Source of the DNA: Pseudobutyrivibrio sp. YE44 | GTDB taxonomy: Bacteria > Bacillota > Clostridia > Lachnospirales > Lachnospiraceae | Assembly: GCF_900104335.1 (NCBI RefSeq) | Contig: NZ_FMXT01000002.1 | Coordinates: 496,001 to 560,000 of the forward strand | DNA length: 64,000 nt | Reading direction: 5' to 3' | In this document: positions 1,113-40,882 of the stretch, piece after piece | Position numbering within the stretch: the stretch's first letter is position 1 | Layout: every line of letters begins with the position of its first letter | Notes under the pieces: generated by a model | What the model was told of the DNA's origin: nothing | Database searches by the model: none | What the model saw: the letters and a program-made list of their open reading frames with translations, nothing else | Position numbers and translations under genes: made by a program

Positions 1113-1373
1113 ATGATTGACAGAGGAAGACTTTTATCCCTCGGCTATTATAAAAAAGCTGCCTCCTTCACAGGCAGTGACGGGCCAAAATGCTACAAAA
1201 TCGAACGCTTTCGCGAGGAAGATTCCGAAGAAGACCAGTTCAAAGCCACCATCTGGCCTGGCCCTTACAGTTCCGACAACACTCCCGACGACCAAAAGCA
1301 GTCACGCCTGGCCCCATTCACCGAAGAAGGCCTAGCCGAACTCGTCGACTGGATGAACCAACTCAGTTTCTAA
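1113..1373 (+). CDS. Small hypothetical protein (86 aa)
   Basis: I do not recognise this family. The start at ATG 1113 is preceded by AAAGGAG at 8-10 bases, and the frame is clean to TAA. The product is a soluble, charged protein of 86 residues with no signal peptide or membrane segment. It is rich in Glu, Asp and Pro, with a Trp-Pro-Gly-Pro stretch near residue 48 and an acidic C-terminal helix ending in WMNQLSF. It is transcribed on its own and runs directly into the palindromic element at 1372, whose left end contains a terminator-like hairpin. The good ribosome site is the main reason for calling it real. Confidence 0.6.
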   Translation: MIDRGRLLSLGYYKKAASFTGSDGPKCYKIERFREEDSEEDQFKATIWPGPYSSDNTPDDQKQSRLAPFTEEGLAELVDWMNQLSF

Positions 1374-1384
1374 CACAACCTACA

Positions 1385-1417
1385 AAGGAGCCATGGCCCA
1401 GCACCAGGCTTCTTTTT
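1385..1417 (+). terminator. Intrinsic terminator at the left end of palindrome A
   Basis: The stem GGAGCC/GGCTTC with an inner GGCCCAGC-rich loop is followed by TTTTT, directly after the 86-aa gene. The mirror-image copy sits at the other end of the palindrome. Confidence 0.6.
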
Positions 1418-2049
1418 CATTCCTCTTCACCAACTGCCCCCCTCTCACCTGCTCCGCCACGGCCGCCCACTGGGGGTTCTTGGTACAGCCTAAGAATTTG
1501 TATTTTCTAAATGCTACACTGCGCTTTTTTTATTGTACGTGTCTTTTAAATTCATTGCACTTTTATCGCTACAGTATGTATAGCACAGACACACACTATT
1601 TTATGTAATGCTCCCCATCAGGAGGTATAACTATCAGTTGCTGGAATTTGTAATGCGCTTAGTAGAATAAAAAGCAGGTTTTGTATGTATAGGCAGCAGC
1701 CGCTAGGATGGCGGCTGCAGTGGTCACTTGAAACACGATGTTGAATGTGCCACGGTGACTATACATTCAAAACCTGCTTTTTTAATTCTACTTAGCAAAT
1801 GGAGTATGGAAGCAGCTGATAGTTATACCTCCTGGTGGGGAGCATTGTTTTAAGCTACAAGTGTCTGTGCTATACATACAGTAGCTTCAAAAGTGCAACA
1901 CCAATTAAAAGACACGTACTAAAAGCTCGTTTGTAGCATTAAGAAAATGCAAAATTCATAGTCAATCATACCAAAACCCCCAGCGGGCGGCCGTGGCGGG
2001 CGGGTAGCTGGCGGAGCAGGTGAGAGGGGGGCAGTTTGGGATATACAGT

Positions 2050-2086
2050 AAAAAAAGGAGCCTGGCGCTGGGCCATGGCTCCTTTG
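2050..2086 (-). terminator. Intrinsic terminator after the GGDEF gene, right end of palindrome A
   Basis: On the minus strand AGGAGCC pairs with GGCTCCT around a GCC/GGC inner stem, followed by seven T. It lies 20-50 bases past the stop of the diguanylate cyclase gene and forms the right end of palindrome A. Confidence 0.75.
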
Positions 2087-2104
2087 TGGGTTGTGTTTAC
2101 TCTT

Positions 2105-3715
2105 TTAGGTCATCCGAGTTTCTTGCTTTTTTTTTTTATTTTCGTACATGCTAGCGTCGGCACGCTTAACGATTGCACGGAAGTCCTCGTCGAGGGTGGC
2201 ATCATAAACTGCGTATCCGATTGCTACTCCGATATCGTATTTGTGATTACCCTCAAGATTTGCTGTGTAAATTTTTGTGAGGAAAATCTTTTTAAGTCTT
2301 TCCATATCAGCATGGTGTGATGGTGGAATAATACAGCAGAACTCGTCTCCACCTGTACGATAGCAGTTGCCATATTTTCCAAATACCTTGCCGAAGGTGT
2401 CAGCTACGATAGTGATATATTCATCACCTGCTTCGTGACCGTAGGTGTCGTTGCAAGCCTTTAGCCCGTTGGCATCAGCCACAACAACTGTTACACCCTC
2501 GAGACTCTTTTCAGCCTGGGCCTGGCTTTCAAAAGCATTTCTGTTGAATAAGCCAGTCATGGTATCGGTGAGGGCAAATATCTCAAGCTGCTTAGCACGT
2601 CTGCCCTTCTCAATCATTTCGTAAGCACTCTTAATCAAATCTGAGGCCAGCATGATAATGAATACAAGGAACAGATAGCGACCCAATCTATCGGAATCTC
2701 CAACCCCTTTATAATAATTGAAGATATCTCCAATAATTGAAATCATAAAAAGTAAAAGTCCTATTCCACATATTCTAAGCCTTCTGGAGAAACGTCTCCT
2801 AAAGACAAGAAGGAATACGCCACCTACCATATAAAAGGCTGCCACTAATAGCATAAGCTGTATACAAGGTAAGGTCTGTCTGAACTCTGCTATTTTTGCA
2901 AGATGAAGAACACAGCAACCTATAGTTTCAACCATCGAAATAGACAAAACTATCGGTTTAAGTATTTTGCTGTTAATTTCCAAGTAAGAATCAAAGAATA
3001 GGATAAATGGTGGTACCACCAACATTAAGCATACATAAGGTATTACCGCATCAAAAACTCTATTGTTAAAAATAAGAACTGCAGCGTCAGTCTCGCTGGC
3101 TGTCCATATACCGATACATAATGCGAAATACGCTAGGTATAACAAATCTTTATTTAGTCCTTGTTTTTTATGCATAGCTGCATAGTAAACAAACAAGATA
3201 CCACTAAAGATAATAATCAATAAACTAGATATGAATCTTGGCATAGAATCAGCTAAAACCTCATCATACATCTGATATGCTGATCCTACATAAAACTTTA
3301 TTTCTTGGTCCTTTACCTCGTCATAAATAGGGGTAAGCTTTACAGCAACCTTCAGCATCTTTTCGTTTACTTCCACGATATTGATGTTGGAACCTGGTGT
3401 TGAACCCCAAATACCACCATCCTTATCGTAACTGTAAATTAATCTGCCGGAATTGTATACCTGAACATCCTGATGGGAGGTATAGAACATTATAGCCGTA
3501 TATCTATAGTCTAAATCTGTAAGGTCAAAATAATATTCCCTAACACCATTAGACAACACAGCTGTTGAGTATGGTTGAATCTGCTGGGTATAGGAAGCAT
3601 CCTTTCTATCTACCTTGGTGTTGAAATAGCACAAAAGCAATATAAGACTGCATGCTATAACCATTAGACGGTTTAGCCAAATTTGAAGTTTTTCAAATGT
3701 ATTTGTTGCTTTCAT
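2105..3715 (-). CDS. Membrane sensor diguanylate cyclase (7TMR-DISM/GGDEF type)
   Basis: The predicted role is to make cyclic di-GMP from GTP in response to an external signal. The 536-residue protein has an N-terminal membrane helix (about 6-26), an extracytoplasmic region to about 160, seven further membrane helices (about 165-370), and a C-terminal GGDEF domain (about 380-536). The GGDEF motif is intact at about residue 454. The RxxD inhibitory site normally just upstream is not present, so product inhibition is unlikely. The start is set at ATG 3715, which has a purine-rich AAAGAG site. A TTG ten codons upstream is in frame but less likely. The gene stands alone and ends in the terminator of palindrome A. 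Confidence 0.85.
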   Translation of the reverse strand: MKATNTFEKLQIWLNRLMVIACSLILLLCYFNTKVDRKDASYTQQIQPYSTAVLSNGVREYYFDLTDLDYRYTAIMFYTSHQDVQVYNSGRLIYSYDKDGGIWGSTPGSNINIVEVNEKMLKVAVKLTPIYDEVKDQEIKFYVGSAYQMYDEVLADSMPRFISSLLIIIFSGILFVYYAAMHKKQGLNKDLLYLAYFALCIGIWTASETDAAVLIFNNRVFDAVIPYVCLMLVVPPFILFFDSYLEINSKILKPIVLSISMVETIGCCVLHLAKIAEFRQTLPCIQLMLLVAAFYMVGGVFLLVFRRRFSRRLRICGIGLLLFMISIIGDIFNYYKGVGDSDRLGRYLFLVFIIMLASDLIKSAYEMIEKGRRAKQLEIFALTDTMTGLFNRNAFESQAQAEKSLEGVTVVVADANGLKACNDTYGHEAGDEYITIVADTFGKVFGKYGNCYRTGGDEFCCIIPPSHHADMERLKKIFLTKIYTANLEGNHKYDIGVAIGYAVYDATLDEDFRAIVKRADASMYENKKKKQETRMT

Positions 3716-3849
3716 AGCTCTTTCTTTTCCAATGAAACCAAACAATTAATAGTTGCGTTATATTTTATTGCCGCTTTTAAATCCAAAGCCGCATTTGTAA
3801 CTATTCTACATCCTGTTCACAATTTGGTCAAGAATATTTATTACGAAAA

Positions 3850-4506
3850 CTAGTCAATAAACATTTTAATTCTGTCATATAACTGAGCATTGTGCACAAC
3901 ATAATCAGAGTGTGTAGCATTAGCCACAATTTCTAATTTTGCGTCCGCTATGCTCTCTACAATCCTTTTTGTTTCCCTTTCTTTAATACAATCATTAGAC
4001 CCTGCCATTATTAGGGCAGGTACTGATATTGCAGAAAGGTCTCTTTCTTTTATATCGGGTTCTAATAGCATTAACTTAACTCTTGGATCATTATTTTTTT
4101 TGAAGGATTTTTTTATTTCATGTATTGCTCTAAGATGAAAACCTGAAGGCGAAAGGTTTGCCCCGCAGCATACTATTCCAGAAAGTAGCTTAGATTCCCT
4201 CATAGCAACCATAAGCGCAATTATTCCACCATCTGAATAACCTACGAGATATGGCTTTTCTATCTCCAGAGCGTTAATCAAATTAATAACATCTGATGCC
4301 ATGTCCTCATAATGGTATTCCTTTGGTGTGGCACTTTCTCCGTGGCCTCTTGTGTCCATAGCGTACACAGTATGAGTCTCACTCATAACCTCCACCAGTT
4401 CATCAAAAATGTGATGATCCTCACAATTTCCATGTATAAGAATAACCGGCGATCCCTCGCCGGTCTTTTCATAACATATTACCTGAGAATTAAGCTGAAT
4501 ATACAT
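3850..4506 (-). CDS. Alpha/beta hydrolase
   Basis: This is a 218-residue cytoplasmic hydrolase. An oxyanion-loop HGN follows the strand VILIHG near residue 24. A DTRGHGES segment comes next, and the nucleophile elbow GYSDGG places the catalytic Ser near residue 91. An Asp in AGSNDC and a His in ATHSDY complete the triad near the C-terminus. It is a minimal fold without a large lid domain. The substrate cannot be predicted; small esters or lactones are possible. It is separated from its neighbours by about 100 bp on each side, so it probably has its own promoter. Confidence 0.8.
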   Translation of the reverse strand: MYIQLNSQVICYEKTGEGSPVILIHGNCEDHHIFDELVEVMSETHTVYAMDTRGHGESATPKEYHYEDMASDVINLINALEIEKPYLVGYSDGGIIALMVAMRESKLLSGIVCCGANLSPSGFHLRAIHEIKKSFKKNNDPRVKLMLLEPDIKERDLSAISVPALIMAGSNDCIKERETKRIVESIADAKLEIVANATHSDYVVHNAQLYDRIKMFID

Positions 4507-4608
4507 ATATACCTCATCCCCCGCATATAGCGGATCCTTCTCCCTTGAAAAGATATTTTATATACTTCTAATGGGCCTAGCCTTAATAAGACCACAAGAA
4601 GTCATTAT

Positions 4609-5370
4609 TTATTTTTCTGCTATTACCTGCTTCATATCGTAGATTCCAGCTGGCTTTCCAGCAAGGAATTTTGCAGCCTCGACTGCACCCTTAGCAAAAA
4701 CGCTCTTTGAGTATGCAGTGTGCTTAATTGTAATAACCTCATCAAGACCAGCAAATATAACCTCATGCTCACCAACGATATTGCCACCTCTTACTGCAGA
4801 GATTCCAATTTCGTTCTTTGGTCTCTTCTCTCGTCTCTCAGCTCTACCATAACAATAATCATACTTTTCATCAAGAGCTTCATTACATGCATCTGCAAGA
4901 GCAAGGGCTGTTCCGCTTGGTGCATCCAACTTCTGATTGTGATGCTTCTCTACGATTTCGATGTCATAGCCAGCCTCAGCAAAAATCTGAGTAGCCTTCT
5001 TGCATAAATCAAATAAAGTGTTGATACCAAGAGACATGTTTGCAGAACGAAGGATAGCAACCTTCTTGCTAGCCTCATCAACATGCTTTAACATATCCTG
5101 ATCAAGACCAGTAGTGCAAAGAACCACTGGATGATTGCTTGAAACACATTCATCAAGCATGCCATCAACTGCTGCTGCATTTGAAAAATCAATTACAACA
5201 TCATAAGGAACATTTACCTCTGCAAGACTATCGAATACTGGATAATCATTTGTGATTCCCTTGTACTTATCTACACCAGCAACAATAGAAACCTCGCTGT
5301 CGCTTTTGCAAATATCAGTGATTACCTGTCCCATGTGTCCGTTACATCCGTGCATTACTACTCTTGTCAT
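4609..5370 (-). CDS. dapB: 4-hydroxy-tetrahydrodipicolinate reductase
   Basis: The enzyme reduces hydroxy-tetrahydrodipicolinate with NAD(P)H in the lysine and diaminopimelate pathway. The 253 residues match the family length. The N-terminal GCNGHMGQ is the nucleotide-binding loop. The CTTGL stretch lies mid-protein, and EKHHNQKLDAPSGT at about 141-154 carries the catalytic His and Lys. The start at ATG 5370 has AAGGAGAT at the right distance. dapL and lysA are elsewhere in this window, so the pathway genes are scattered rather than in one operon. Confidence 0.95.
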   Translation of the reverse strand: MTRVVMHGCNGHMGQVITDICKSDSEVSIVAGVDKYKGITNDYPVFDSLAEVNVPYDVVIDFSNAAAVDGMLDECVSSNHPVVLCTTGLDQDMLKHVDEASKKVAILRSANMSLGINTLFDLCKKATQIFAEAGYDIEIVEKHHNQKLDAPSGTALALADACNEALDEKYDYCYGRAERREKRPKNEIGISAVRGGNIVGEHEVIFAGLDEVITIKHTAYSKSVFAKGAVEAAKFLAGKPAGIYDMKQVIAEK

Positions 5371-5410
5371 AATAATATCTCCTTGTGTTTATTTTGTAGA
5401 AAAAGTAAAT

Positions 5411-6565
5411 CTAGTTTTTGAATTTTATATCATTGTTAAAGCTTTGAGACTTTTCATCATATTGTTCTGTTCTGGCATGAGAACGTTTTGTACGGCTTTG
5501 CTTGTATAGACTCTTGTCATCGTACATGGCCTTGTCAGCCTGAACTACCACCTCGTCAAAATCATCTCCAGGCTTGTACATATGTAAACCAAAAGAGCAT
5601 GAGTAAGGTGTTTCTGAAAGTTTCTGCTTGGTGTCAGAAATAAGCTGCTCTGCTTCTTCCTTTGATGCTTTGATACCAAGCATCATAAACTCGTCACCAC
5701 CAGTACGATATAAAATGAATCTGTTATCTTTAACACTTCGGCATACCTCAGCAAGGGTGAGCAAAGCAATGTCTCCAGCCTTGTGACCGAAATTGTCGTT
5801 AATAAGCTTCAAGTCATTTAAATCCATGGAAATAACAGCCATATTTGTTTTGGCATATTTGGCTGCATCTGAATAAAAGCATCGTCGCTTGTAACAGCCT
5901 GACACGGAATCCACATTGTAACGCTCTGCGTACATATATACATACACAAACAGTACTCCGATACTGCTAGAAGTAAGTGTACAATTGTCGTATATTAATG
6001 CCTCTTCCAAGAATACACCCATGCTAACTACCGCCAGCATAAACAAAATAATAAGGGCATCTCTTTGATAACCATTAAACCATTTCTTAGCGCATACTGC
6101 TAAGGCCATCAATGTATATATTCCAGCCTGTACAAAAACTATATATCCAACAGGGCCTCTGATAAATTCACCCTTTGGTCCAAAGGAGAAAACAGCTGGA
6201 CTAAATGGCGCACTTGCTATAACAATGGAAATAAGAATAAATGGCGTCCATAATATCTTCAATCTGCTCTTTCTATAATCGTGACCAACAATTTGAACTA
6301 CTGTCAATTCCATATAGCCTTCGCAGATGTATTTTACAATTTTAAATAAATATCTAATGTTGGTGCAACATCCTACATAACCAAAGTGGGTATCCAGGGC
6401 ACCAGCGGTAAGAGCAATTAACATTGCCACTGCAACAGCAGTAAACTTGTTACGCAATCTCCTGTTAAAGGATCGCATTATAACAATAAACATCAACAAC
6501 GTGATTGTAGTAATGAAACCTAAATATGTTTCACCGTCAATAACATGATTAAACAAACCTTCCAT
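5411..6565 (-). CDS. Membrane GGDEF diguanylate cyclase
   Basis: This is a second predicted cyclic-di-GMP synthase, 384 residues long. Six to seven hydrophobic helices span about 15-215 and form a membrane sensor unlike that of the gene at 2105. The catalytic GGDEF domain occupies about 225-355, with GGDEF at about 288. I see no RxxD inhibitory site at the usual distance. A charged tail of about 30 residues ends the protein. It starts at ATG 6565 behind GAGGGTAAG. It lies between dapB and typA but is separated from typA by a hairpin, so it is probably its own unit or co-transcribed with dapB downstream (40 bp gap). Confidence 0.85.
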   Translation of the reverse strand: MEGLFNHVIDGETYLGFITTITLLMFIVIMRSFNRRLRNKFTAVAVAMLIALTAGALDTHFGYVGCCTNIRYLFKIVKYICEGYMELTVVQIVGHDYRKSRLKILWTPFILISIVIASAPFSPAVFSFGPKGEFIRGPVGYIVFVQAGIYTLMALAVCAKKWFNGYQRDALIILFMLAVVSMGVFLEEALIYDNCTLTSSSIGVLFVYVYMYAERYNVDSVSGCYKRRCFYSDAAKYAKTNMAVISMDLNDLKLINDNFGHKAGDIALLTLAEVCRSVKDNRFILYRTGGDEFMMLGIKASKEEAEQLISDTKQKLSETPYSCSFGLHMYKPGDDFDEVVVQADKAMYDDKSLYKQSRTKRSHARTEQYDEKSQSFNNDIKFKN

Positions 6566-6589
6566 AACTTACCCTCATACTGCAGAAAT

Positions 6590-6615
6590 GGCCAGAGAAG
6601 CTACTTCTCTGGCAT
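6590..6615 (-). terminator. Hairpin downstream of typA
   Basis: CCAGAGAAG and CTTCTCTGG form a 9-bp stem, followed on the minus strand by a short T-rich run. It lies between typA and the GGDEF gene. Confidence 0.5.
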
Positions 6616-6637
6616 ATTTCTTAAACATCATCTGCAA

Positions 6638-8470
6638 TTATTTCTTAAAACTTGCTCTCTTACGAAGAGTTGGGTCAAGAATTCTCTTTCTGATACGAAG
6701 AGACTCTGGTGTAACCTCTAACAACTCATCAACATCTATGAAATCTAATGCCTGCTCAAGGCTGAGAACTCTAGGTGGAACAAGAGTAAGTGCCTCATCA
6801 GCTGAAGATGAACGAGTATTTGTAAGATGCTTCTTCTTACATACGTTAAGCTCGATATCCTCTGCACGTGAGCTCTGTCCGATAACCATTCCTGAGTATA
6901 CCTTCTCGCCTGGTCCAATGAAAAGTGTACCACGGTCCTGAGCTGAGAAGAGTCCGTAAGTAACAGACTCACCTGTCTCGAAGGCAATAAGACTACCAAG
7001 CTTACGATATGCAATATCGCCCTTGTAGATTTCGTATCCGTCAAAAATTGTATTAATTATACCATTTCCCTTTGTATCTGTCATAAACTCGCCACGGTAA
7101 CCAATGAGACCACGTGAAGGAATCTTGAACTCGATACGTGTATACCCACCTGTAATAGGTGTCATATTCTGAAGCTCGCCCTTTCTCTGAGAAAGCTTCT
7201 CTATAACTGCTCCTGTAAATTCGTCTGGAACATCAACATAAGCACGCTCCATTGGCTCAAGCTTATGACCCTTTTCATCCTCTTTGTAGAGAACCTCTGC
7301 CTTTGATACAGCAAATTCAAAGCCTTCACGACGCATGTTCTCAATAAGAACTGAAAGGTGAAGCTCACCACGACCTGAAACCTTAAGGGAATCTGGTGAA
7401 TCTGTATCCTCTACACGAAGAGAAACGTCTGTGTTAAGCTCCTTCATAAGACGCTCACGGATGTGGCGTGATGTAACATACTTACCTTCCTGACCAGCAA
7501 GTGGGCTATCATTTACAATGAAGTTCATTGAAATAGTAGGCTCAGAAATCTTCTGGAAAGGAATTGGATTTGGTGCGTCAACTGCACAAATTGTATCTCC
7601 AATGTGGATATCTGAAATACCAGAAATCGCTACGATTGAACCGATATTTGCTTCATCAACATCTACCTTGTTAAGGCCATCGTACTCAAAAAGCTTTGAA
7701 ATACGAACCTTGTTGTTCTTTGACTCATCGTGAGCATTAACAACGATGGCATCCTGGTTAACTTTGATAGAACCATTCTCTACCTTACCAATACCGATAC
7801 GTCCAACGTACTCGTTGTAATCGATTGTAGAGATAAGTACCTGTGTAGGTGCCTCTGGGTCACCCTTTGGTGCTGGAATATAATCTACGATTGTCTCGAA
7901 GAGTGCTGTCATATCCTTGTGCTCTTCATCAAGGCTTCTGATAGCGAAACCTTCCTTAGCTGAAGCATAAATAAATGGACAATCAAGCTGCTCATCTGAA
8001 GCATCAAGGTCCATGAAAAGTTCAAGAACCTCGTCGATAACTTCGTCTGGACGAGCCTCTGGTCTATCAATCTTGTTGATACAAACGATAACTGGTAAAT
8101 CAAGATCAAGAGCCTTCATAAGAACGAACTTTGTCTGTGGCATAGCGCCTTCGAAAGCATCTACAACAAGAACTACACCATTTACCATCTTAAGTACACG
8201 CTCAACCTCGCCACCGAAATCAGCATGACCTGGTGTGTCGATGATGTTAATCTTTGTATCCTTATAGTATACAGCTGTGTTCTTTGAAAGGATTGTGATA
8301 CCACGCTCACGCTCGATATCATTTGAATCCATAACACGCTCTGCTACTTCCTGGTTCTCACGGAATACACCTGACTGCTTTAAAAGCTCGTCAACAAGTG
8401 TTGTTTTACCATGATCTACGTGTGCGATAATTGCGATATTTCTAATATCTTCTCTACTTTGAATTGACAT
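6638..8470 (-). CDS. typA: Translational GTPase TypA/BipA
   Basis: This is a ribosome-associated GTPase of the elongation-factor family involved in 50S assembly and stress growth. The 610 residues match the family. The P-loop is in AHVDHGKTTL (about 15-24), followed by RGITI in switch I, DTPGHADFGGEV (G3) and NKIDRP (G4). Domain II, the EF-G-like domains III and V, and the BipA-specific C-terminal domain follow in order. It starts at ATG 8470 with AAAGAGA upstream. A 250-bp spacer with a palindrome separates it from serS. Confidence 0.95.
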   Translation of the reverse strand: MSIQSREDIRNIAIIAHVDHGKTTLVDELLKQSGVFRENQEVAERVMDSNDIERERGITILSKNTAVYYKDTKINIIDTPGHADFGGEVERVLKMVNGVVLVVDAFEGAMPQTKFVLMKALDLDLPVIVCINKIDRPEARPDEVIDEVLELFMDLDASDEQLDCPFIYASAKEGFAIRSLDEEHKDMTALFETIVDYIPAPKGDPEAPTQVLISTIDYNEYVGRIGIGKVENGSIKVNQDAIVVNAHDESKNNKVRISKLFEYDGLNKVDVDEANIGSIVAISGISDIHIGDTICAVDAPNPIPFQKISEPTISMNFIVNDSPLAGQEGKYVTSRHIRERLMKELNTDVSLRVEDTDSPDSLKVSGRGELHLSVLIENMRREGFEFAVSKAEVLYKEDEKGHKLEPMERAYVDVPDEFTGAVIEKLSQRKGELQNMTPITGGYTRIEFKIPSRGLIGYRGEFMTDTKGNGIINTIFDGYEIYKGDIAYRKLGSLIAFETGESVTYGLFSAQDRGTLFIGPGEKVYSGMVIGQSSRAEDIELNVCKKKHLTNTRSSSADEALTLVPPRVLSLEQALDFIDVDELLEVTPESLRIRKRILDPTLRKRASFKK

Positions 8471-8550
8471 AAAATTCTCTTTTCTAAATTCTTACAATAA
8501 ACTACCTTGTAAAAACCAAACCCCAAATCCGCTAATCCGCTGGTTACGAT

Positions 8551-8612: not shown

Positions 8613-8719
8613 ATCTACCAGCTCATCTATGAATTACTTCTCACGAGTAAACATGGTTTTGTACTACTCTTTCGAAAAGCAATTTTAAGCCGACGGATTA
8701 TATTTTGTCAATTAAAATT

Positions 8720-21725: not shown

Positions 21726-22367
21726 GGCCCTGTGCTGGCACTTCTCAACCACTGCTCACGTCTCCCCTCCCCCGCCTGCCGGCTCTCTCCATACCTTTGT
21801 GGCAAAGCCAAATAATTTGTATTTTCTAAATGCTACACTGCGCTTTCTTTATTGAAGGCGTCTTTTCAATTCGTTGCACTTTGTGCACTACAGTATGTAT
21901 CACGCAGACACACATTACTTTTAGAAATGCTTCCCATCGGGGTATATAACTATCAGTTGCTGGAATTTGTAGTGCGCTTAGTGGAATAAAAAATGTGTTT
22001 TGATATATATAGGCATGTGCCGCCATGGACGGCGGCACAAGTGCGATTTGCAACAGGACGTTGACATTGAGCACGGTGACTATATATACAAAACACATTT
22101 TTGAAATTCCACTTAGCAAACGGAGTATGGAAGCAACTGATAGTTATATACCCTGATAGGAAGCATTGTTTAGGCTACTAGTGTCTGCGTGATACATACA
22201 GTAGCTTCAAAGTGCAACACCAGTGAAAAGACACCTTCGGAAAGCTCGTTTGAAGCATTAAGAAAATGCAAAATTCTTCGTCAATTATGCTCACAAAGGT
22301 ATGGAGAGGGCCGGCAGGCGGGGGAGGGGGAGGGGTGAAATTAAAATAGAAGTGCCAGCACAGGGCC
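21726..22367. repeat. Long imperfect palindrome, copy B (about 642 bp)
   Basis: This is a second member of the family, in the same orientation as copy A. The outer stem 21726-21745 pairs perfectly with 22348-22367, and a second GC-rich stem (about 21770-21805) pairs with 22295-22336. Neither matches copy A in sequence. The inner core is nearly the same as copy A: TTTTCTAAATGCTACACTGC on the left, CTATCAGTTGCTGGAATTTG and GCATTAAGAAAATGC further on. The central stem (about 21985-22105) has a different sequence from A but the same fold. It sits between a LacI gene and the end of dapL. Confidence 0.8.
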
Positions 22368-29606: not shown

Positions 29607-29653
29607 GAGAAAAAGCTCTTTGCACTGCAATAACACATATGTGCCATCTACAG

Positions 29654-29751
29654 TACAAACTGAACAGGCAATACTAGATACATCACATAGTATGTGGCCG
29701 GGTCAAATTAATGACAGCAGAAGATATTTCGCATCTGCGGGACAGTAGTAT
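29654..29751 (+). ncRNA. NiCo riboswitch aptamer (Ni/Co sensing)
   Basis: The conserved pieces appear in order: CTGAACAGGCAAT, then GCCGGG, then a CAGCAGA...TCTGC hairpin arm, then GGGACAG. They are arranged as the four-helix NiCo (czcD-motif) aptamer. P1 is TAC..ACTG paired with CAGT.GTA. The gene downstream is a CDF metal exporter, the usual partner. Binding of nickel or cobalt should stabilise the aptamer and turn the gene on. The identification is from memory of the published consensus. Confidence 0.88.
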
Positions 29752-29898: not shown

Positions 29899-31272
29899 AT
29901 GGATGAAAACACAATTGTAAAGAAATTGTCTCGCATAGGAATTTTAGGAAATGTGGCACTTTCTGCTTTTAAGTTGGTCGCAGGAATCATAGGAAACTCT
30001 ACAGCCATGGTTTCTGATGCTATTCATTCTTTGTCTGATGTTTTTGCTACATTAATCGCATACGTAGGTGTACTCATGTCACGACAGCCAGAAGACAATG
30101 AGCATCCCTATGGTCACGAACGCCTAGAGTGTGTTGCATCCTTGTTGCTTGGCACAATACTTGCTGTAACTGGACTTGGAATTGGCTATTCTGGTGTTCA
30201 TAAAATCATTTTTCCAAGAGAATTAGAAATTCCTACAATACTTCCTTTGATAGCTGCTGTTGTATCTATCTTGGTGAAGGAGGGTATGTTTTGGTACACA
30301 ATGTACTATGCTAAAAAGTTAGATTCGTCAGCCTTCAAAGCTGATGCCTGGCATCATCGCTCTGACGCTATTTCTTCAGTAGGTTCGTTTATTGGTATTG
30401 GAATGGCAAAGCTTGGATTTCCTATAATGGACCCTGTAGCCAGTTTATTAATATGCTTGTGTATTTTGAAGGTGGCTTATGACATATCCAAGGACGCCTT
30501 CATAAAAATGCTAGATACCTCCTGTGGTGAGGATTTTGAACAGGAGCTTAGCAACTTTATCTTGGAGCAACCAGGCGTTGTAGGAATAGATTTATTGCAT
30601 ACTAGACAATTTGGTAATAGAAACTATGTGGAACTAGAAATTGCAGTTAATAGAGATATTTCCCTGGTAGAAGCTCACGATATTGCAGAAAATGTTCATG
30701 CAAGTCTTGAGAAGAATTACCCCAATATCAAACATGTAATGATTCATGTGAATCCTGCAGAAGAAAAAAATGAAGCATGTTCAGATATTGTATCGGATGC
30801 AGAACCGAATTCAGAGCCTGATACAGCATTGGCTATTGCATCAGATACAGAATTAGAAGCAACATCAGATATAGATTCTGGCATCCAAGCAGAACATATA
30901 ATTAACCCTGAAAAAATGACTGAAAAGGATTCTGCAAATAATATTATCTATGAGGATAATCATTTTAAGCTATATAGTCACTCTAAGAGACTTTATCTAG
31001 AAATAGATAAAGTACATTATGAATTAGGATGTAAGCATCCTTATGATCCCATTAGCTATATTTCAGATAATCATGGCATGACAAAACTTTTTAGACCAGG
31101 ATGGTATTTTTCCGATTATGATATTAATGCTCTTTTGGCAGGAAAGCCTATTAGGTCTATAACTGGCCGTGATCTTAATGCATATGATTTATGTAGACTT
31201 ATGGAAACTACGATAAATAGTGAATCAGATATGAATGAAATTGGAGATTTGGAAAGAAAAACTTTCTGTTAA
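29899..31272 (+). CDS. CDF-family metal cation exporter with a C-terminal extension
   Basis: This proton-coupled exporter probably removes nickel, cobalt or zinc. Residues about 12-205 form six membrane helices. Metal-site motifs are SDAIHSLSD (Asp40, His43, Asp47) and HHRSD near 154-158. The usual cytoplasmic dimer domain follows to about 290. A low-complexity acidic linker (about 291-345, many Asp, Glu and Ser) then joins an extra domain of about 100 residues that I do not recognise, with aromatic and His residues. Most CDF proteins end near 300. It is the only gene under the NiCo riboswitch. Confidence 0.9.
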   Translation: MDENTIVKKLSRIGILGNVALSAFKLVAGIIGNSTAMVSDAIHSLSDVFATLIAYVGVLMSRQPEDNEHPYGHERLECVASLLLGTILAVTGLGIGYSGVHKIIFPRELEIPTILPLIAAVVSILVKEGMFWYTMYYAKKLDSSAFKADAWHHRSDAISSVGSFIGIGMAKLGFPIMDPVASLLICLCILKVAYDISKDAFIKMLDTSCGEDFEQELSNFILEQPGVVGIDLLHTRQFGNRNYVELEIAVNRDISLVEAHDIAENVHASLEKNYPNIKHVMIHVNPAEEKNEACSDIVSDAEPNSEPDTALAIASDTELEATSDIDSGIQAEHIINPEKMTEKDSANNIIYEDNHFKLYSHSKRLYLEIDKVHYELGCKHPYDPISYISDNHGMTKLFRPGWYFSDYDINALLAGKPIRSITGRDLNAYDLCRLMETTINSESDMNEIGDLERKTFC

Positions 31273-31333: not shown

Positions 31334-31339
31334 GCAAAA

Positions 31340-33068: not shown

Positions 33069-33105
33069 AATCCCATAATTCCTTTCATATATCATTATCG
33101 TCTAA

Positions 33106-34617
33106 TTAACGAGGTGTGATTAGCTTTGTTAAATCTGTACCAGCAATTGCATTTGCCTGTGCGATAATATCAGGACTGTCTGCATTCTGATAGAAATCAA
33201 ATCCCATCTTGTGAGAACCATCTAAGTTACATAAACCTGAATGCATTCCCTGTGCAATATCAATTGCATCATCGGATTCTCTTGAAACAACAAGACCATC
33301 AATAAGACTATTATTGTTTGCCACAAGATTTGCATATACTAATGATGCGGCCTGGAGCTGTTCACCACCAGCACTGGTGTATCCAACCTCAGAACACTTT
33401 ACGGTACGAGGTGCTCCTGTTGGCGAAAGCATATCTGCCGAACACATAAAGTCTGTTAAAACATCTATATTTGCCATAGTCACATATGGAGTGCTCTGGC
33501 TATGAGAAACATTCTTGCCTGTCTCCCATGCAATTGGTGCATAAAGAGGAGCATTATATGGATGAACTGCAAGTCTCCAATCAACGTTTCCTTCACTCTT
33601 AATAATATTGTTAAGCTTAGTTACAAATTCCTTACCTGAAATATAGTAAGAAGCTTCTGATCTAGCCCACTGATGATCTATACAGGTGTAAACATTAGCG
33701 TTTGCATTTTCAGACTTGATACCGTTATACATAAGTCTGAAGGCCTTAGCATATTCCTGCATAAACACATCGTTAGAGCCACAATTCATGTAATTCCAAA
33801 GCCACCATGCATTAACCTCATTACCAATAATAAAGTTATCTACCTGACCATAACCGATTCCTGAATAATGCTTTGCAACAAAGGATGCTGCTTCCTGTAT
33901 TGACTTAACACCTTCTGCTGTATTTGCATTCAAGCCATAATAATTGTGAGCGCCTAAACCGTCATAAGAATATGGATTAATGTAATTAATTGGAGTTGAA
34001 TCATTAACTAAAAGAATTACATTAACCTGCATTCCCTGAGCATTATACTTGCGTACAGAGAAATCATATCCTGCTAAAGAACCAAGCTTTGCAAGATTAA
34101 TATTCAAATTAACCTGTTTTGCGCCAAGCTGCTGAGGCTGATTTTTGCTTGCAACTGACTGTAACAAATCAGGTAGGATACCCTTCTTGCCATAATCCAT
34201 TCTCTTAGGAGCTGCTGTAGCGCATGCCTCTGGATTTGTGATGTACATGCTATTAGAAACTGCCTTTAAAGCTCCACCACTCATAACACATACTGTAAAT
34301 TTCTTAAATAGCATTGAGTTGGCAGTGCCCTTTGCAAGTGGTACTGTAAATGAAGTTGCAGCACCTACTGCAGCCTGAGCAACATCGGTTCCCTGAGGAG
34401 CTGCTTCGTTTACATCAGAAGCAACAAGATGATACATACCATCCTCAGAAGCTACTGTACCCTGAGAAGCTATAACTACATCTGCTCCCTGGATAACTGC
34501 TCCACCAATTGTAACGTTATCTTTTGCATAAGCTGTCTGTGTTGGAACAAACGCAAATGCTGTAACTACAAGGATTAGTGATAAAACAAAACTAGTGATT
34601 TTCTTTGGAAATTTCAT
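33106..34617 (-). CDS. DUF5722-type secreted protein, tandem paralogue
   Basis: This 503-residue protein is a clear paralogue of the downstream gene. It has a signal peptide (about 1-30, ending near AYAKD), then the same beta domain and large domain. The two candidate catalytic Glu residues lie in GNEVNAWW (about 267) and SEVGYTS (about 410). About 30 residues are missing against its neighbour, mainly in the middle. The start at ATG 34617 is supported by GAAAGGAGT. A long upstream in-frame extension lacks a ribosome site and is rejected. The pair is probably one transcript. Confidence 0.75.
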   Translation of the reverse strand: MKFPKKITSFVLSLILVVTAFAFVPTQTAYAKDNVTIGGAVIQGADVVIASQGTVASEDGMYHLVASDVNEAAPQGTDVAQAAVGAATSFTVPLAKGTANSMLFKKFTVCVMSGGALKAVSNSMYITNPEACATAAPKRMDYGKKGILPDLLQSVASKNQPQQLGAKQVNLNINLAKLGSLAGYDFSVRKYNAQGMQVNVILLVNDSTPINYINPYSYDGLGAHNYYGLNANTAEGVKSIQEAASFVAKHYSGIGYGQVDNFIIGNEVNAWWLWNYMNCGSNDVFMQEYAKAFRLMYNGIKSENANANVYTCIDHQWARSEASYYISGKEFVTKLNNIIKSEGNVDWRLAVHPYNAPLYAPIAWETGKNVSHSQSTPYVTMANIDVLTDFMCSADMLSPTGAPRTVKCSEVGYTSAGGEQLQAASLVYANLVANNNSLIDGLVVSRESDDAIDIAQGMHSGLCNLDGSHKMGFDFYQNADSPDIIAQANAIAGTDLTKLITPR

Positions 34618-34811
34618 AAACTCAAAAACTCCTTTCGAATAATCAATATCATTCTCAGCCCGTGTGACGGGACAATACTCACTATAATATAGAGTTATTA
34701 AAAAAGTGTGAAAATAATAATTAAAAGAATAATATAACACAAAGAGTTCACTGATACTCTAGAGTTAAAGAAATGTTGTTAAAGCCATATACTTCACAAT
34801 ACATAAAAAGA

Positions 34812-34840
34812 ACCCCCTAAGTACCTTGTACCTAGGGGAT
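34812..34840 (-). terminator. Terminator of the hydrogenase operon
   Basis: CCCCTAGGTAC and GTACTTAGGGG pair and are followed by TTCTTTTTA on the minus strand, about 35 bp past the hydrogenase-like gene. Confidence 0.8.
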
Positions 34841-34873
34841 TCCTAATTATCTATATCTTATTAGAATAAGTGA

Positions 34874-36352
34874 TTACTCCATATGTCCATCACGATACAT
34901 GGAGAACTTATCCATTGGGTAATTCTCAAGGTTCTCAAGAATCTTACGTCCATCAGCCTTGCCGATAAGACCAGTTCTAGCCTTAAGGATTTCTCTCTCA
35001 GCCTTGTGCTTAGAAGGTCCGCCTACGCAACCACCTTCACAAATCATACCCTCGATGAAGTCTGCATCAAGCTTACCGCTCTTAAGAAGCATAAGTGCCT
35101 TCTTACACTCAGCACCACCTGCACACTGCATAAGCTTAAGGTCGTCTGTATTCTGTCCACGCTCCTGCATGCACTCGATAACAGCCTTTGCAACACCGCC
35201 TGAAGATGCGAAGTGCTTACCAAATGTAGATGACTCCTGGTAGTTCTCATCTACTGGCTCGAACTCAACACCCTTAGAACGCATCATAGCACGAAGCTCA
35301 CCGAATGTGATAACGTAATCTGCATTTCCTGGTACTGTCTCATCAGCAGCCTCAGACTTCTTAGCGATACATGGTCCAACGAATACTGTTACAACGTCCT
35401 CACCCTCTGTTGCCTTAAGGAAACGAGAGATAGCGCACATTGGAGATACAGTTGAAGACATGTTGTTCTCGAACTGCTCTGGGAAGTGCTTTCTAAGCAT
35501 GTTGATGAAAGCTGGGCAGCAAGATGTTGTCATCTTACGTCCTTCTTCCTTAGCCTCGTACCACTCAGCTGACTCATAAGCAGCTGTCATATCTCCACCG
35601 AGACCAACTTCGATCATATCTGTGAAACCAAGCTTCTTGCATGCAGCCTTAACAGCAGCCATTGAGATATCCTCACCGAACTGTCCCTCTGTAGCAGGTG
35701 CGCACATAGCGTAAACCTTCTTGCCCTCAAGGATAGCCTTGATGATATGTACAAGATATGTCTTAGATCCGATAGCACCGAATGGACAGCTGTGGATACA
35801 GTGACCACATGAGATACACTTCTCATCATCGATTACGCAGTGACCGTACTCGTCGTAAGAAATAGCGCCAACTGGGCAAGCCTTCTTACATGGTCTCTCA
35901 AGGTGAACGATTGCCTGATAAGGACATTCCTTAGCACACATACCGCACTCCTTACACTTTGTAGGATCGATGTGCATTCTTCTCTCACCTGGAGAGATAG
36001 CACCGAACTTACAAGAGTTGAGACATGCTTTTCCAAGACAGAAACGGCAGTTATCTGTAACTGAATAAGATGCGATAGAACAGTCATCACAAGCTGGCTG
36101 GATAACCTGAACTACGTTCTTTGAATCTGGGTTTGTTGGAAGATTCTCAGCGCAAGAAAGAATAACTCTCTGTCTAACGATTTCTCTTTCCTTATAAACG
36201 CAACAACGATATGTTGGTCTTGGTCCAGGAATGATTTCGTAGCAAACAGCCTCTTTGTGCTCAGCGTCAAGCTCACCATTCCAAGCAAGCTTACAAACCT
36301 CTTCCATAATGTTGTGCTTCAAACGTACAATACTTTGATCTGAAGTAACCAT
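34874..36352 (-). CDS. [FeFe]-hydrogenase-like protein with 4Fe-4S domains
   Basis: This is an Fe-S protein of 492 residues. An N-terminal region of about 100 residues is followed by a run of cysteine clusters (CRFCLGKACLNSC, CKECGMCAKECP, CISCGHCIHSCP) at about 100-195. The H-cluster domain has TSCCPAF near 273, GPCIAKK near 327 and EGMICEGGC near 436, equivalent to the L1, L2 and L3 motifs with all four cluster cysteines. The sequence style fits the group B monomeric type rather than the group A bifurcating type. It could make or use hydrogen with ferredoxin. The three maturases precede it in the same operon. Confidence 0.88.
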   Translation of the reverse strand: MVTSDQSIVRLKHNIMEEVCKLAWNGELDAEHKEAVCYEIIPGPRPTYRCCVYKEREIVRQRVILSCAENLPTNPDSKNVVQVIQPACDDCSIASYSVTDNCRFCLGKACLNSCKFGAISPGERRMHIDPTKCKECGMCAKECPYQAIVHLERPCKKACPVGAISYDEYGHCVIDDEKCISCGHCIHSCPFGAIGSKTYLVHIIKAILEGKKVYAMCAPATEGQFGEDISMAAVKAACKKLGFTDMIEVGLGGDMTAAYESAEWYEAKEEGRKMTTSCCPAFINMLRKHFPEQFENNMSSTVSPMCAISRFLKATEGEDVVTVFVGPCIAKKSEAADETVPGNADYVITFGELRAMMRSKGVEFEPVDENYQESSTFGKHFASSGGVAKAVIECMQERGQNTDDLKLMQCAGGAECKKALMLLKSGKLDADFIEGMICEGGCVGGPSKHKAEREILKARTGLIGKADGRKILENLENYPMDKFSMYRDGHME

Positions 36353-36378
36353 ATTTTTCTCCTTTTACAAAAATACTT

Positions 36379-37581
36379 TTAATTGCCAGTTTTTATTATT
36401 CTTAGACTTCTGTCTAAAATACCATTGAATTTTGCAATGGCCATTCCATAATTCACAATAGGAACGCCCTGCTGCTTGCAGCGCTTCGTTCTGCTTTGCA
36501 TCTCGGCTTCATTAACCATACATCCGCCGCAGTGAACTACAAGCTTATACTTTGTTAAATCCTCAGGAAAATCATTTCCAGAGGTAAACTCAAATCTCAC
36601 ATCCTTGCCAGTGAAGTTTTTAATCCAACCTGGAAGCTTTACCGTACCTATGTCGTTACATTGACGATGATGGGTACAAGCCTCAGAAATGAGAACTGTA
36701 TCATTATCTTCAAGCTTTTCTAGAGCTGCTACACCTTCCAGCTGTGTGGCAAGGCTTCCTCTGTAGCGCGCCATCAAAATACTAAAGGATGTAAGTTCTA
36801 TTTCCTCAGGTACGATTTTTGATACCTGCTGAAAAGCCTGTGAATCAGTGATTACCAGTGAAACCTTGCTATTTTCCTCAAGAGCTTCACGAAGCTCTTC
36901 TGGCTGACAACAAATAATCTTGCAATTGTTGTCAAGCAGGTCTCTGAGAACCATCTGTTGAGGAAGAATTACTCTTCCCTTTGGAGCAGATTCGTCGATT
37001 GGAATTACCAGGACAACTGTACTTTTCTCCTGCACCAAATCTGCAACTAAAACCTGTTCCTTTTCTTTTATCTGTGGAAGCAACTTAATCAAGGCTTCCT
37101 TTACTGAGCTCATATCATCGCTAGTGGCATCTAAATAGATAAGCTGCTCATCAGATGATATCTCATTAAAGCTGTGCCCCTCTGCCTCATCCACATGATT
37201 TTCAATTATTATATGAGGAAGCTTTCTTTCTTCAACTATCTTGATGAAATCAGCCTCTTCTTCTGTAAGAGTTTGGTTTCTGGCATCTAACACCAGTACC
37301 ACAATATCTATCTCATCAAGGATGCGATAGGTTCTGTGTTTGCGAAGTTCTCCAAGCTCTCCCTCATCATCAAAACCAGCTGTATCGATGATTACCACTG
37401 GGCCAATTGGAAGAATCTCCATGGCCTTTTTAACCGGATCAGTGGTGGTACCTTTGTGGTCTGACACAAGTGATACTGGCTGATTGGTGAGCTTATTAAC
37501 TATGCTTGACTTGCCAGCGTTCCTAATTCCGAAAAAACCTATGTGAGTACGCTGACCGCTTGACACATCATTCAAAGTCAT
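36379..37581 (-). CDS. hydF: [FeFe]-hydrogenase maturation GTPase HydF
   Basis: HydF is the scaffold GTPase that carries the 2Fe precursor to the hydrogenase. The 400-residue protein has an N-terminal Era-like GTPase with the P-loop in RNAGKSS near residue 20 and DTAGFDD at G3. A dimerisation domain follows. The C-terminal cluster domain has CTHHRQC and HCGGC supplying the Fe-S ligands. The start is placed at ATG 37581 behind GAGGTG. It lies 26 bp upstream of the hydrogenase-like gene. Confidence 0.95.
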   Translation of the reverse strand: MTLNDVSSGQRTHIGFFGIRNAGKSSIVNKLTNQPVSLVSDHKGTTTDPVKKAMEILPIGPVVIIDTAGFDDEGELGELRKHRTYRILDEIDIVVLVLDARNQTLTEEEADFIKIVEERKLPHIIIENHVDEAEGHSFNEISSDEQLIYLDATSDDMSSVKEALIKLLPQIKEKEQVLVADLVQEKSTVVLVIPIDESAPKGRVILPQQMVLRDLLDNNCKIICCQPEELREALEENSKVSLVITDSQAFQQVSKIVPEEIELTSFSILMARYRGSLATQLEGVAALEKLEDNDTVLISEACTHHRQCNDIGTVKLPGWIKNFTGKDVRFEFTSGNDFPEDLTKYKLVVHCGGCMVNEAEMQSRTKRCKQQGVPIVNYGMAIAKFNGILDRSLRIIKTGN

Positions 37582-37669
37582 TTTACACCTCATAAGTCAC
37601 CTGCGGTGACAGCTTCTCCTCAAGAAGAAGCCTATTGTATTATAGTAAAAATATTTGTATATTTAATGA

Positions 37670-39112
37670 CTAAAATCTGAAATCTCTACGATTAGAATTC
37701 TTAATAGCCTCGATATTTTCCTCAGCCGTCTTTCTGACATTTTCCTTTGGAATCTTCTTAAGCTCTTCCTCAATCATCTTGTAACCAACCTTCTTTGTTT
37801 CCTCAGAAGCGTAATCAACAAGATACTCTGTAAGAGTCATCAAAGCGTTTGGATGACAACAGTTGATAATCTGACCCGTCTTGCAAAGAGACATGAAACG
37901 ATCTCCAGTACGTCCTGCACGATAGCATGCTGTACAGAATGAAGGAATATGACCTGTCTCCATAAGCCACTTAACAACCTCATCAAGAGTACGCTGATCA
38001 GAAACATCGAACTGCTCTGTGTCGTGAGGTCTTTCTTCCTCTGTGTAGCCACCAACTGATGTACGGCTGGCACCAGAAACCTGTGAAATACCAACCTGAA
38101 GCATCTTGCGACGAACCTCCTCAGACTCACGAGTAGAAATAATCATACCTGTGTAAGGAACAGCGATTCTGATACAAGCTGCAATCTTTGTGAACATCTC
38201 GTCTGGAATAGAGTTGTCAAATACATCTGGATCAATATCATCAGCATGCTTTACACGTGGAACTGAGATAGTGTGTGGGCCAACCCCATGAACTGCCTCA
38301 AGATGCTCTGCATGCATAAGAAGACCAGCGAATTCGTACTTGTAGCTCTCAAGTCCAAAAAGAACACCAAGACCTACATCGTCGATTCCACCTTCCATAG
38401 CACGGTCCATTGCCTCTGTATGATATGCATAATCATGCTTTGGACCTGTAGGATGAAGCTCCTCATAGCTCTTTTTATTGTAAGTCTCCTGGAAGAGGAT
38501 GTATGTTCCAATACCTGCATCCTTGAGCTTGCGATAGTTTTCAACTGTTGTAGCAGCAATATTGACATTGACACGTCTGATATCGCCATTTTTATGATGA
38601 ATGCTATAAATTGTGTTGATGCACTCTAAGATGTACTCGATAGGATTGTTTACTGGATCCTCACCTGCCTCAATAGCAAGTCTCTTGTGACCCATGTCCT
38701 GAAGTGCAATAACCTCAGCCTTAACTTCTTCCTGAGTAAGCTTCTTACGGCCGATATGCTTATTCTTTAAGTGATATGGACAATATACACAGCCATTTAC
38801 ACAATAATTTGAAAGATAAAGTGGTGCAAAAAGCACGATACGGTTGCCATAGAAAGCATCCTTGATTTCCTGTGCAACCTGATACATCTTCTCAATGTAC
38901 TTTGGTTCTTCGCAGGCAAGAAGTACTGATGCCTCACGGTGAGTAAGACCGCTACATACACATCCCTCTGCTGTCTTTACTGGACGAGCCTTTTCCAAAA
39001 GCTGTTCAATAAGTTCAAAATTGTTTTTGTTGGCCTCAGCATAGGCAATTGTATCAAGGATTTCCTGATTGTCTATGAACTCCTCAGCCTTTAGAGAATT
39101 TACATTGTACAT
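37670..39112 (-). CDS. hydG: [FeFe]-hydrogenase maturase HydG
   Basis: HydG is a radical-SAM tyrosine lyase that makes the CO and CN ligands of the H-cluster. The 480-residue protein has the CVNGCVYC motif (CxxxCxxC) near residue 96 and a C-terminal auxiliary cluster region with CTACYRAGRTGD and later cysteines, which separates it from the related ThiH. It starts at ATG 39112 with AGAGGTAG, 19 bp after hydE, and is followed by hydF. Confidence 0.95.
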   Translation of the reverse strand: MYNVNSLKAEEFIDNQEILDTIAYAEANKNNFELIEQLLEKARPVKTAEGCVCSGLTHREASVLLACEEPKYIEKMYQVAQEIKDAFYGNRIVLFAPLYLSNYCVNGCVYCPYHLKNKHIGRKKLTQEEVKAEVIALQDMGHKRLAIEAGEDPVNNPIEYILECINTIYSIHHKNGDIRRVNVNIAATTVENYRKLKDAGIGTYILFQETYNKKSYEELHPTGPKHDYAYHTEAMDRAMEGGIDDVGLGVLFGLESYKYEFAGLLMHAEHLEAVHGVGPHTISVPRVKHADDIDPDVFDNSIPDEMFTKIAACIRIAVPYTGMIISTRESEEVRRKMLQVGISQVSGASRTSVGGYTEEERPHDTEQFDVSDQRTLDEVVKWLMETGHIPSFCTACYRAGRTGDRFMSLCKTGQIINCCHPNALMTLTEYLVDYASEETKKVGYKMIEEELKKIPKENVRKTAEENIEAIKNSNRRDFRF

Positions 39113-39131
39113 TTATACTACCTCTTTTCTA

Positions 39132-40184
39132 TTAAAAACCTGCCCTGTTACCAACATCTTCAACGATTTCATATCCGATAGAGGATATACGATTTTTAAG
39201 ACAGTTAACGCACTCTGCTGCTTCTTCGCCGGTACAAATTTTGTTGTCGTACAAGGTGTATTTCTTACGAACATTTACCGGAGAAAGATTAGGCATTACA
39301 ACATTGGCACCAGCCAGGATGCCCTTTTCGCGCCCCTGTGGGTGTATAGTGCCAAGTGCTGTAGTTGCAGGTAATAACACCTGCGGATAAATGATTCTAA
39401 TAAGGGATAAGCACAACAATGTGGTTTCTAAGGTGCCACTCTTTTCTTTTGAAAAAGGTGTATCCTTATGGCTGATAAACGGCCCGATACCACACATATC
39501 TGGCTTAAATTCCTCAACAAACTTTAAATCCATAGCTAGGTCATAAGGTGTCTGACCTGGGGATTCCACCATAAATCCTGCTCCCACTTGATAGCCTATC
39601 TCTTTTAATGTCTTGAGACAAGTCATTCTGTTCTCCCAAGAGAGATTCTCTGGGTGAAGCTTTGCATAAAGCAGTGGATTGGCGGTTTCATGTCTAAGTA
39701 AATATCTATCTGCCCCAGCGTCAAAATAAGCCTGATAGCTTTCTCTTGAACGCTCACCTATTGAAAGTGTAACCGCAACATCTGGATGCGCCTTTTTAAT
39801 TGAGCGGACAATATCACAAACGTCCTGATCAGAAAAAGCGAAATCCTCGCCTCCCTGCAGGACTACTGTCCTATAGCCCAATTTATAACCCGTATCTGCA
39901 CATTCCATAATGTCCGATTTGGACAAACGATATCTCTCACATTGATTATTATCTCGCCTGATTCCACAGTAATAACAATTATTTCTGCAGAAATTCGTAA
40001 ACTCCACTAAGCCACGAGTAAACACCTTGTTTCCATAATACTGTTTCTGATATGCACGTGCATACTCAGCCGCAAGCTCCATAAGCTCACCGTCAGCATT
40101 CTTCAACAAGTACTCGTATTCCTCAACTGAAAGCGAATGATTAATATTTAGTTCATCAAGTAATTTCTTTGAATCTAAATCCAT
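39132..40184 (-). CDS. hydE: [FeFe]-hydrogenase maturase HydE
   Basis: HydE is a radical-SAM enzyme of H-cluster assembly, acting after HydG. The 350 residues form a full TIM barrel. The cluster motif CRNNCYYC is near residue 67, and GGED near 115 follows the family pattern. It is the first gene of the operon hydE, hydG, hydF and hydrogenase-like protein, all on the minus strand with gaps of 19-76 bp. It starts at ATG 40184 with AATAGGAT. Confidence 0.93.
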   Translation of the reverse strand: MDLDSKKLLDELNINHSLSVEEYEYLLKNADGELMELAAEYARAYQKQYYGNKVFTRGLVEFTNFCRNNCYYCGIRRDNNQCERYRLSKSDIMECADTGYKLGYRTVVLQGGEDFAFSDQDVCDIVRSIKKAHPDVAVTLSIGERSRESYQAYFDAGADRYLLRHETANPLLYAKLHPENLSWENRMTCLKTLKEIGYQVGAGFMVESPGQTPYDLAMDLKFVEEFKPDMCGIGPFISHKDTPFSKEKSGTLETTLLCLSLIRIIYPQVLLPATTALGTIHPQGREKGILAGANVVMPNLSPVNVRKKYTLYDNKICTGEEAAECVNCLKNRISSIGYEIVEDVGNRAGF

Positions 40185-40270
40185 ATCCTATTAATGAGAA
40201 AATATATCGTTTATTTTTTCACAAAGTATACTATATCATAATTTAACTAGGGTTAAAGTTTTATTTTCAA

Positions 40271-40882
40271 TACAAAAAGCTACTATATTCTAGGATACTT
40301 TCCGCCTCCACCTTCCCCTATTCTCTTGCCACCCTCTGGCAGCCTCTTTTTCTATTATAACTCCATCTCTCCTCCTCTGCACACCCCGCAGCCACACAGT
40401 CAGGGCCTCAGTACTTTTGTGGGCATGATTGCCGGAGAATTTTGCATTTTCTTAATGCTACAAACGGGCTTTCAGTAGGTGTCTTTTCGTTGGTGTTGCA
40501 CTTTGAAGCTACTGTATGTATTGCACAGACACTAGAAGTATTCATTAATTCTCCTATCAGCTATATACATATTAAGTGTCTTCATACTCCATTCACCAAG
40601 TGGAATTAACTAAAAAATAGTGTGTGTCTGTGCAATACATACTGTAGCGACAAAAGTGCAATGAATCGAAAAGACGCCTACAATAAAGAAAGCGCAGTGT
40701 AGCATTTAGAAAATGCAAATTCTTTGGCTTTGCCACAAAAGTACTGAGGCCCCGACCGTGTGGCTGCGGGGGCGTGCCTAGAGCTGGGATGAAGTTTTAG
40801 TGAATATAGGGAGGCTGCCAGAGGGTGGCCTGGGGATATGGGAAGGTGGAGGCGGATGTAGGTACTGGGGTAGCTTTTTGTA
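40271..40882. repeat. Long imperfect palindrome, copy C (about 612 bp, inverted)
   Basis: This is the third family member, in opposite orientation to A and B. The ends 40271-40315 and 40841-40882 pair closely, as do two more GC-rich stems (about 40327-40350 with 40804-40830, and about 40380-40430 with 40735-40772). None of these stems matches A or B. The core pieces GCATTTTCTTAATGC and CGCAGTGTAGCATTTAGAAA are shared. The middle is short: one inner arm and the central double hairpin found in A and B are gone, so C is a deletion form. It separates hydE from the genes to the right. Confidence 0.78.

Follow-up and report, generated by a model that had tools for sequence, protein, structure and literature searches.

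Palindromic repeats tipped by the TwoAYGGAY motif in Pseudobutyrivibrio: a dispersed element whose arms may be renewed by DNA copying

Three long palindromes, A, B and C, lie in the window, as we call the whole 64,000-nucleotide stretch of Pseudobutyrivibrio sp. YE44 DNA that was analysed. They are best explained as copies of one dispersed, non-autonomous palindromic element, which is tipped by the TwoAYGGAY motif, has arms copied from one another at the DNA level and carries an apex resembling a CsrA site. We put the probability of this combined reading at roughly 60%. The positions of the palindromes, their common core and their orientations, alike in A and B and inverted in C, agree with the earlier note on this DNA. 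The features are as follows (evidence in brackets).

1372..2098, plus strand: element A, whole palindrome (sequence, inverted repeats, folding)
1497..1966, plus strand: conserved core of A, common to the other copies (alignment)
1647..1807, plus strand: apex of A, RF01731 TwoAYGGAY (55.7 bits)
1696..1718, plus strand: apex hairpin 1 of A, loop AGGATG, like a CsrA site (sequence)
1732..1742, plus strand: apex hairpin 2 of A, loop ACGAT, without GGA (sequence)
21726..22367, plus strand: element B, whole palindrome (inverted repeats, folding)
21815..22285, plus strand: conserved core of B (alignment)
21965..22128, plus strand: apex of B, RF01731 TwoAYGGAY (70.5 bits)
22016..22039, plus strand: apex hairpin 1 of B, loop CATGGACG, a full CANGGANG match (sequence)
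22051..22063, plus strand: apex hairpin 2 of B, loop CAGGACG (sequence)
40271..40882, minus strand: element C, whole palindrome; its core runs opposite to those of A and B, and the apex is deleted (without RF01731 match)
40441..40719, minus strand: remaining core arms of C (inverted repeats, DNA search)

Two small hairpins with loops of GGA type form the centre of the element. Outside them come a stem whose internal loops are constant, then a motif like TTTTCTTAATNTTCNG with its partner, and finally an outer arm. The sequence TTTTCTAAATGCTACACTGC is found at 1503 (A) and 21822 (B), and GCATTAAGAAAATGC at 1936 (A) and 22255 (B); in C their reverse complements stand at 40694 and 40444, respectively. 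Element A begins within the stop codon (TAA 1371-1373) of a plus-strand gene and ends 6-7 bp short of the stop (2105-2107) of a minus-strand GGDEF gene. Inverted repeats of 13-76 nt with 75-100% complementarity occur throughout all three elements. In the shuffle-controlled folding, which covered A and B, A folded as DNA reached -270 kcal/mol against -95 kcal/mol in shuffles (z -35) and B folded as RNA -376 against -178 kcal/mol (z -38), with 0 of 20 shuffles as low in either case. The palindromes are real and far above chance. Across copies, sequence is conserved over the inner 470 bp, with 395 of 462 aligned core positions identical between A and B, and the outer arms are copy-specific: A and B agree there at 60 of 79 positions in a gap-permissive alignment, near the reversed control (58/84). 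The note's claim that the family keeps a specific folded shape holds for the core only, where the recurring mismatches between the two arms are real in all three copies; the outermost part of each arm (~125 bp in A, 89 bp in B, 165-170 bp in C) differs from copy to copy. Each copy's own arms pair well, except in L022 and L023, where no outer-arm pairing was found.

The same note had found no matching RNA family and had named an Rfam match as evidence against its reading. For the tip it was mistaken: cmscan identifies the apexes of A and B as RF01731 at the scores listed above, the curated cut-off being 43 bits. TwoAYGGAY is an already known candidate RNA of unknown function, so the apex is not new. 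The known motif is the tip only; on either side, 240-290 bp of arm extend beyond the RF01731 match. Element C has no RF01731 match, and its best Rfam match, a miRNA family at 34 bits against a cut-off of 140, was rejected; judged from its sequence, C is the same element minus the apex. The discoverers of TwoAYGGAY judged it to be probably an RNA (Weinberg 2010, PMC2864571), and Rfam 15 and CaCoFold credit it with extra covarying pairs (PMC11701678, PMC7657543). Elsewhere in the window, a NiCo riboswitch match (29650-29747, 73.5 bits) lies upstream of the reading frame 29899-31272. A further Rfam match, to SpF66_sRNA (55477-55691), covers a hydrophobic reading frame of 31 residues and a hairpin like that of a terminator; together they resemble a small type I toxin-like peptide gene.

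A DNA search with a 476-bp query from B located the element at 32 places in the window's genome, and the RF01731 covariance model alone gave 11 matches there. Seven of the 32 places are at contig ends, and other copies contain runs of N (L171, L177); thus, assemblies break at these hairpins. Within the genus, 27 of 29 genomes contain RF01731 matches, with up to 49 per genome; such counts are lower bounds, as G001 has 0 matches and yet the corresponding B. fibrisolvens 16/4 record holds a full copy. Across the Lachnospiraceae, a search with stricter filters and at most six candidates scored per genome found the element in 65 of 397 genomes. In other genera, two RF01731 copies lie near each other in opposite orientation (L287, L288, L289, L290, L291), in L288 with a reading frame between them that by eye resembles a CAAX-protease-type membrane protein. 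Occupancy of individual sites varies: the element adjoins aspC in 1 of 28 fetched loci, is present at gltD in 9 of 27 (16 without a core match, 2 uninformative) and occupies a third locus in 3 of 27. Empty sites in related genomes, which the earlier note had proposed to look for, were found and are reciprocal between G000 and G008; they were called by eye, as were the core exchanges, core flips and inverted terminator and gene-end copies described below. Neither phages nor plasmids gave a match to the B core, viral contigs gave none to a single 18-base pattern, and carriage by any of the three was rejected on these searches. We found no account of the element in the literature on palindromes and MITEs in Lachnospiraceae.

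Evidence of movement comes from copies with defined ends. In G008, some copies end in GTTACCATTCACAG. Where two exact ends lie 300-900 bp apart, perfect 8-bp direct repeats flank 3 of 11 pairs, compared with 0 of 110 control pairings; in the other 8 pairs no more than 5 of 8 target bases match. One of the 11 (L265, 381 bp) is probably made up of ends that belong to different elements. The IS110-bearing copy in G014 has one further 8-bp direct repeat, and with one end mismatch allowed the target repeats of L139 (8/8) and L157 (7/8) also fit. A, B and C are without these exact ends. The inverted ends and 8-bp target duplications of some copies in related species indicate that the element has moved. 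Together with the 32 places and the presence or absence of copies between species, they bear out the idea of a non-autonomous mobile DNA, and we have very little doubt that the element is dispersed and mobile.

The copies with defined ends would have been moved by a putative transposase acting in trans. An IS256-type mobiliser was rejected, this family being absent from G000 and G008, and no autonomous partner was found among the exact-end pairs listed: the two pairs more than 1 kb apart are an IS110-interrupted element and a toxin-antitoxin-like pair, without a transposase of the element's own. The first (L257:1808-4152) carries an IS110-family transposase (402 aa) within the loop of apex hairpin 2, which may be a target of IS110, and the 8-bp duplication outside the insert is intact. 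In the second (L264:508-1771), ends of the same type lie 1264 bp apart around two reading frames (80 and 88 aa; toxin-antitoxin-like by eye), with neither target duplication nor transposase. The same ends, GTTACTATTCACAG, also border a second repeated element of 187-194 bp (L258-L268, L272-L275; for example G000:C9:92771-92962), which has five exact-end copies in the window's genome and inner stems that by eye seem to vary in a paired fashion between copies, as well as a different 252-bp element (L269). Among these short elements, a near-perfect target repeat occurs in 1 of 15, the control giving 1 of 210.

How the arms change can be followed at single loci. At one site shared by G005 and G020, the flanks are identical at 548 of 599 positions and the core at 441 of 478, but the outer arms agree at only 44/79 and 40/74 positions, each arm pair still being self-complementary. 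At the same locus, G002 and G003 differ by multi-base replacement on both sides and by an inverted core. Another locus (G028 and G027) has kept its arms and differs in its core; G011 and G014 have retained both flanks and arms, with the core turned round between them. A core flip is seen in L046/L047. Eight sibling copies in G008 (ten were chosen and two dropped by pattern) have core identities of 0.92-0.97 and arm identities of 0.45-0.91; of 51 arm columns, 27 vary in a paired manner, and 64 cells are unpaired. Relative to the core, one outer loop is on the left in four of these siblings and on the right in three, so the core flips among them too. In other copies the palindrome stops at stop codons or holds the terminators of both neighbouring genes as inverted copies, and in L108 even the last codons of the neighbours are present in this form. 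The simplest mechanism by which the arms would be re-made within each copy is template switching by a polymerase at the hairpin: one side would be copied onto the other, spreading outward until coding sequence is reached and sometimes flipping the core. In published work, template switching homogenises arms and inverts spacers (PMC8604942), and compensatory changes spanning several bases are described (PMC8794818). Many arm mismatches are grouped in clustered internal loops, for which simple copying gives no explanation. The 5' arm contains more C than G in 79 of 84 copies, less in 2 and equal amounts in 3, which says nothing about orientation because a palindrome reads alike on both strands; a replication-strand bias of the C-rich arm was rejected, as no clear link emerged (Spearman -0.19, p 0.08). 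By eye, the 5' arm of some copies in other genera seems rich in G.

Alternatively, each insertion might draw its arms from the target DNA and keep them unchanged thereafter, the loci common to several species being independent insertions at preferred sites close behind terminators or stop codons. The common loci could indeed be hot spots that were hit repeatedly, the 9 of 27 gltD loci at which the element directly adjoins the terminator differ in arm and core types, and neighbouring terminators and gene ends lie inside arms. However, G005 and G020, with only 1 and 2 RF01731 matches, respectively, share one site and nearly the same core, and the arms of G002 and G003 are homologous and yet changed over several bases on both sides. 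We consider an origin of the arms in the target unlikely, and maintenance by arm-to-arm copying probable.

The pairing signature bears on a further alternative, the "new large RNA" of the earlier note, in which the whole hairpin would be a transcribed, structured RNA gene whose arm covariation results from selection for RNA pairing. An RNA is suggested by the identity of the apex with RF01731 and its discoverers' judgement, by the strand-specific loop motif and by changes on both sides of 17 of 18 pairs in an apex alignment of 58 sequences, 45 of them from other genera. In the core zone, wobble pairs are in excess on the plus strand (52 versus 21, p 0.0004; distinct contexts, 36 versus 18, p 0.02; a looser count, 215 versus 178, p 0.07), which points to some RNA selection there. 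The arms lack such a bias: among isolated mismatches in 84 of 90 elements (6 were dropped for N or short alignment), 35 are G-U on the plus strand, 36 are G-U on the minus strand and 33 are transversions. Covarying apex pairs contain 10 G-U and 9 A-C in 978 cells. A control alignment of SAM riboswitches from this family of bacteria, made from 30 of the 52 matches listed and with covariation in 9 of its 30 pairs, gives 24 and 5 in 265 (p 7.5e-10). The contrast is smaller over all pairs (15/1036 versus 30/895, p 0.01), and an apex realignment without the 13 Pseudobutyrivibrio rows gives 47 G-U and 41 A-C in 1332 cells. Thus, the helices covary with little or no G-U lean, as template switching predicts, and the excess of G-U over A-C on one strand that is expected for a structured RNA appears neither in the apex nor in the arms.

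Genomic context also speaks against the large RNA. Promoter-like sites in A and B are at shuffle level, and among the 82 of 86 sites that were usable, 26 are convergent, 11 divergent, 18 tandem sense and 27 tandem antisense. Core orientation ignores gene direction, which counts against a read-through RNA, and the cores flip between orthologues. With its tip already known and its arm pairing lacking an RNA signature, a large structured RNA appears quite improbable. Copy-specific, self-complementary arms fit DNA arm-to-arm copying better than RNA selection, and copying is preferred because of the missing G-U bias, the change in place, the arms that reach stop codons and the core flips. Movement or function in the form of folded single-stranded DNA, with hairpins read by a recombinase, is very unlikely for this element: the almost exclusively Watson-Crick to Watson-Crick covariation, alike on both strands, and the loop motif on one strand would suit it, but the 8-bp target duplications indicate insertion by way of double-stranded DNA, the loop motif is in keeping with a CsrA site, and no linked recombinase came to notice.

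In the preferred reading, arm copying would be accompanied by selection of the apex as a single-stranded, plus-strand CsrA-type site with two GGA loops, which most likely acts as a putative transcript that binds CsrA; the shuffle-level promoter-like sites and the indifference of core orientation to gene direction count against this. The consensus of hairpin 1 is GACANGGATGTC; PMC6692469 gives the CsrA consensus as RUACARGGAUGU, and as CANGGANG for a relative. All 90 Pseudobutyrivibrio copies, which are related to one another and were selected by the RF01731 model, itself favouring GGA loops, have GGA in the hairpin-1 loop, and 68 of them match CANGGANG; only 39 of the 90 retain GGA in hairpin 2. 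In the 58-sequence alignment, GGA occurs in the hairpin-1 loop of 53 sequences and the hairpin-2 loop of 46. A csrA gene is present in 210 of 397 Lachnospiraceae genomes (one gene in G000), divided as 62 of 65 with the element versus 148 of 332 others (Fisher p 4e-16, kinship ignored), an association of which flagellated lineages may explain part. For the SAM riboswitch, an unrelated element, the corresponding figures are 30/47 versus 5/13 (p 0.12), the same lean but weaker. CsrA binding by TwoAYGGAY has been proposed before from motif matches (PMC4333381). We rate the chance that the apex is a CsrA-binding RNA at a little under even.

A broader scenario is more tentative, and we regard it as possible but rather doubtful: the mobile palindrome would distribute hairpins that bind CsrA among the Lachnospiraceae and act as a dispersed CsrA sponge, with stems kept by arm-to-arm DNA copying and covariation that is a product of replication rather than of RNA selection. 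TwoAYGGAY has been a candidate RNA without known function since 2010, and its place at the tip of a mobile palindrome would, if true, explain its multi-copy, orientation-free distribution. The analysis also suggests caution in that DNA template switching can yield covariation, then without an excess of G-U such as the riboswitch control shows; absence of this excess would be a cheap diagnostic. Arm copying would, moreover, become measurable in natural genomes.

The element overlaps with several known systems and is fully covered by none of them. Like TwoAYGGAY, the apexes of A and B score above the family cut-off, but the Rfam model has 168 positions and here caps palindromes of 640-730 bp whose arms are copy-specific and which occur many times per genome. 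Integron attC sites are hairpins of folded single-stranded DNA that are read by a recombinase; these sites and REP elements resemble the element in their variable stems with conserved unpaired bases and in being intergenic and multi-copy, and the element differs from them in its size and target duplications. MITEs are generally multi-copy, lack a long reading frame and have inverted ends with target duplications. The element is likewise multi-copy without a long reading frame of its own, and among its copies in G008 and G014 some are bounded by inverted ends and flanked by 8-bp duplications of the target. In contrast to MITEs, it is almost wholly palindromic, its arms vary between copies, A, B and C are without defined ends, and the exact-end pairs listed include no autonomous partner. 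CsrA-sequestering RNAs such as CsrB and RsmZ also present GGA in hairpin loops, and hairpin 1 fits the CsrA consensus, but the element has two predicted sites per copy and many dispersed copies. Quasipalindrome template switching features the same arm homogenisation, multi-base paired changes and spacer or loop inversion (PMC8604942, PMC8794818, PMC6649704); what would be different here is that it acts on a repeated mobile element with long arms.
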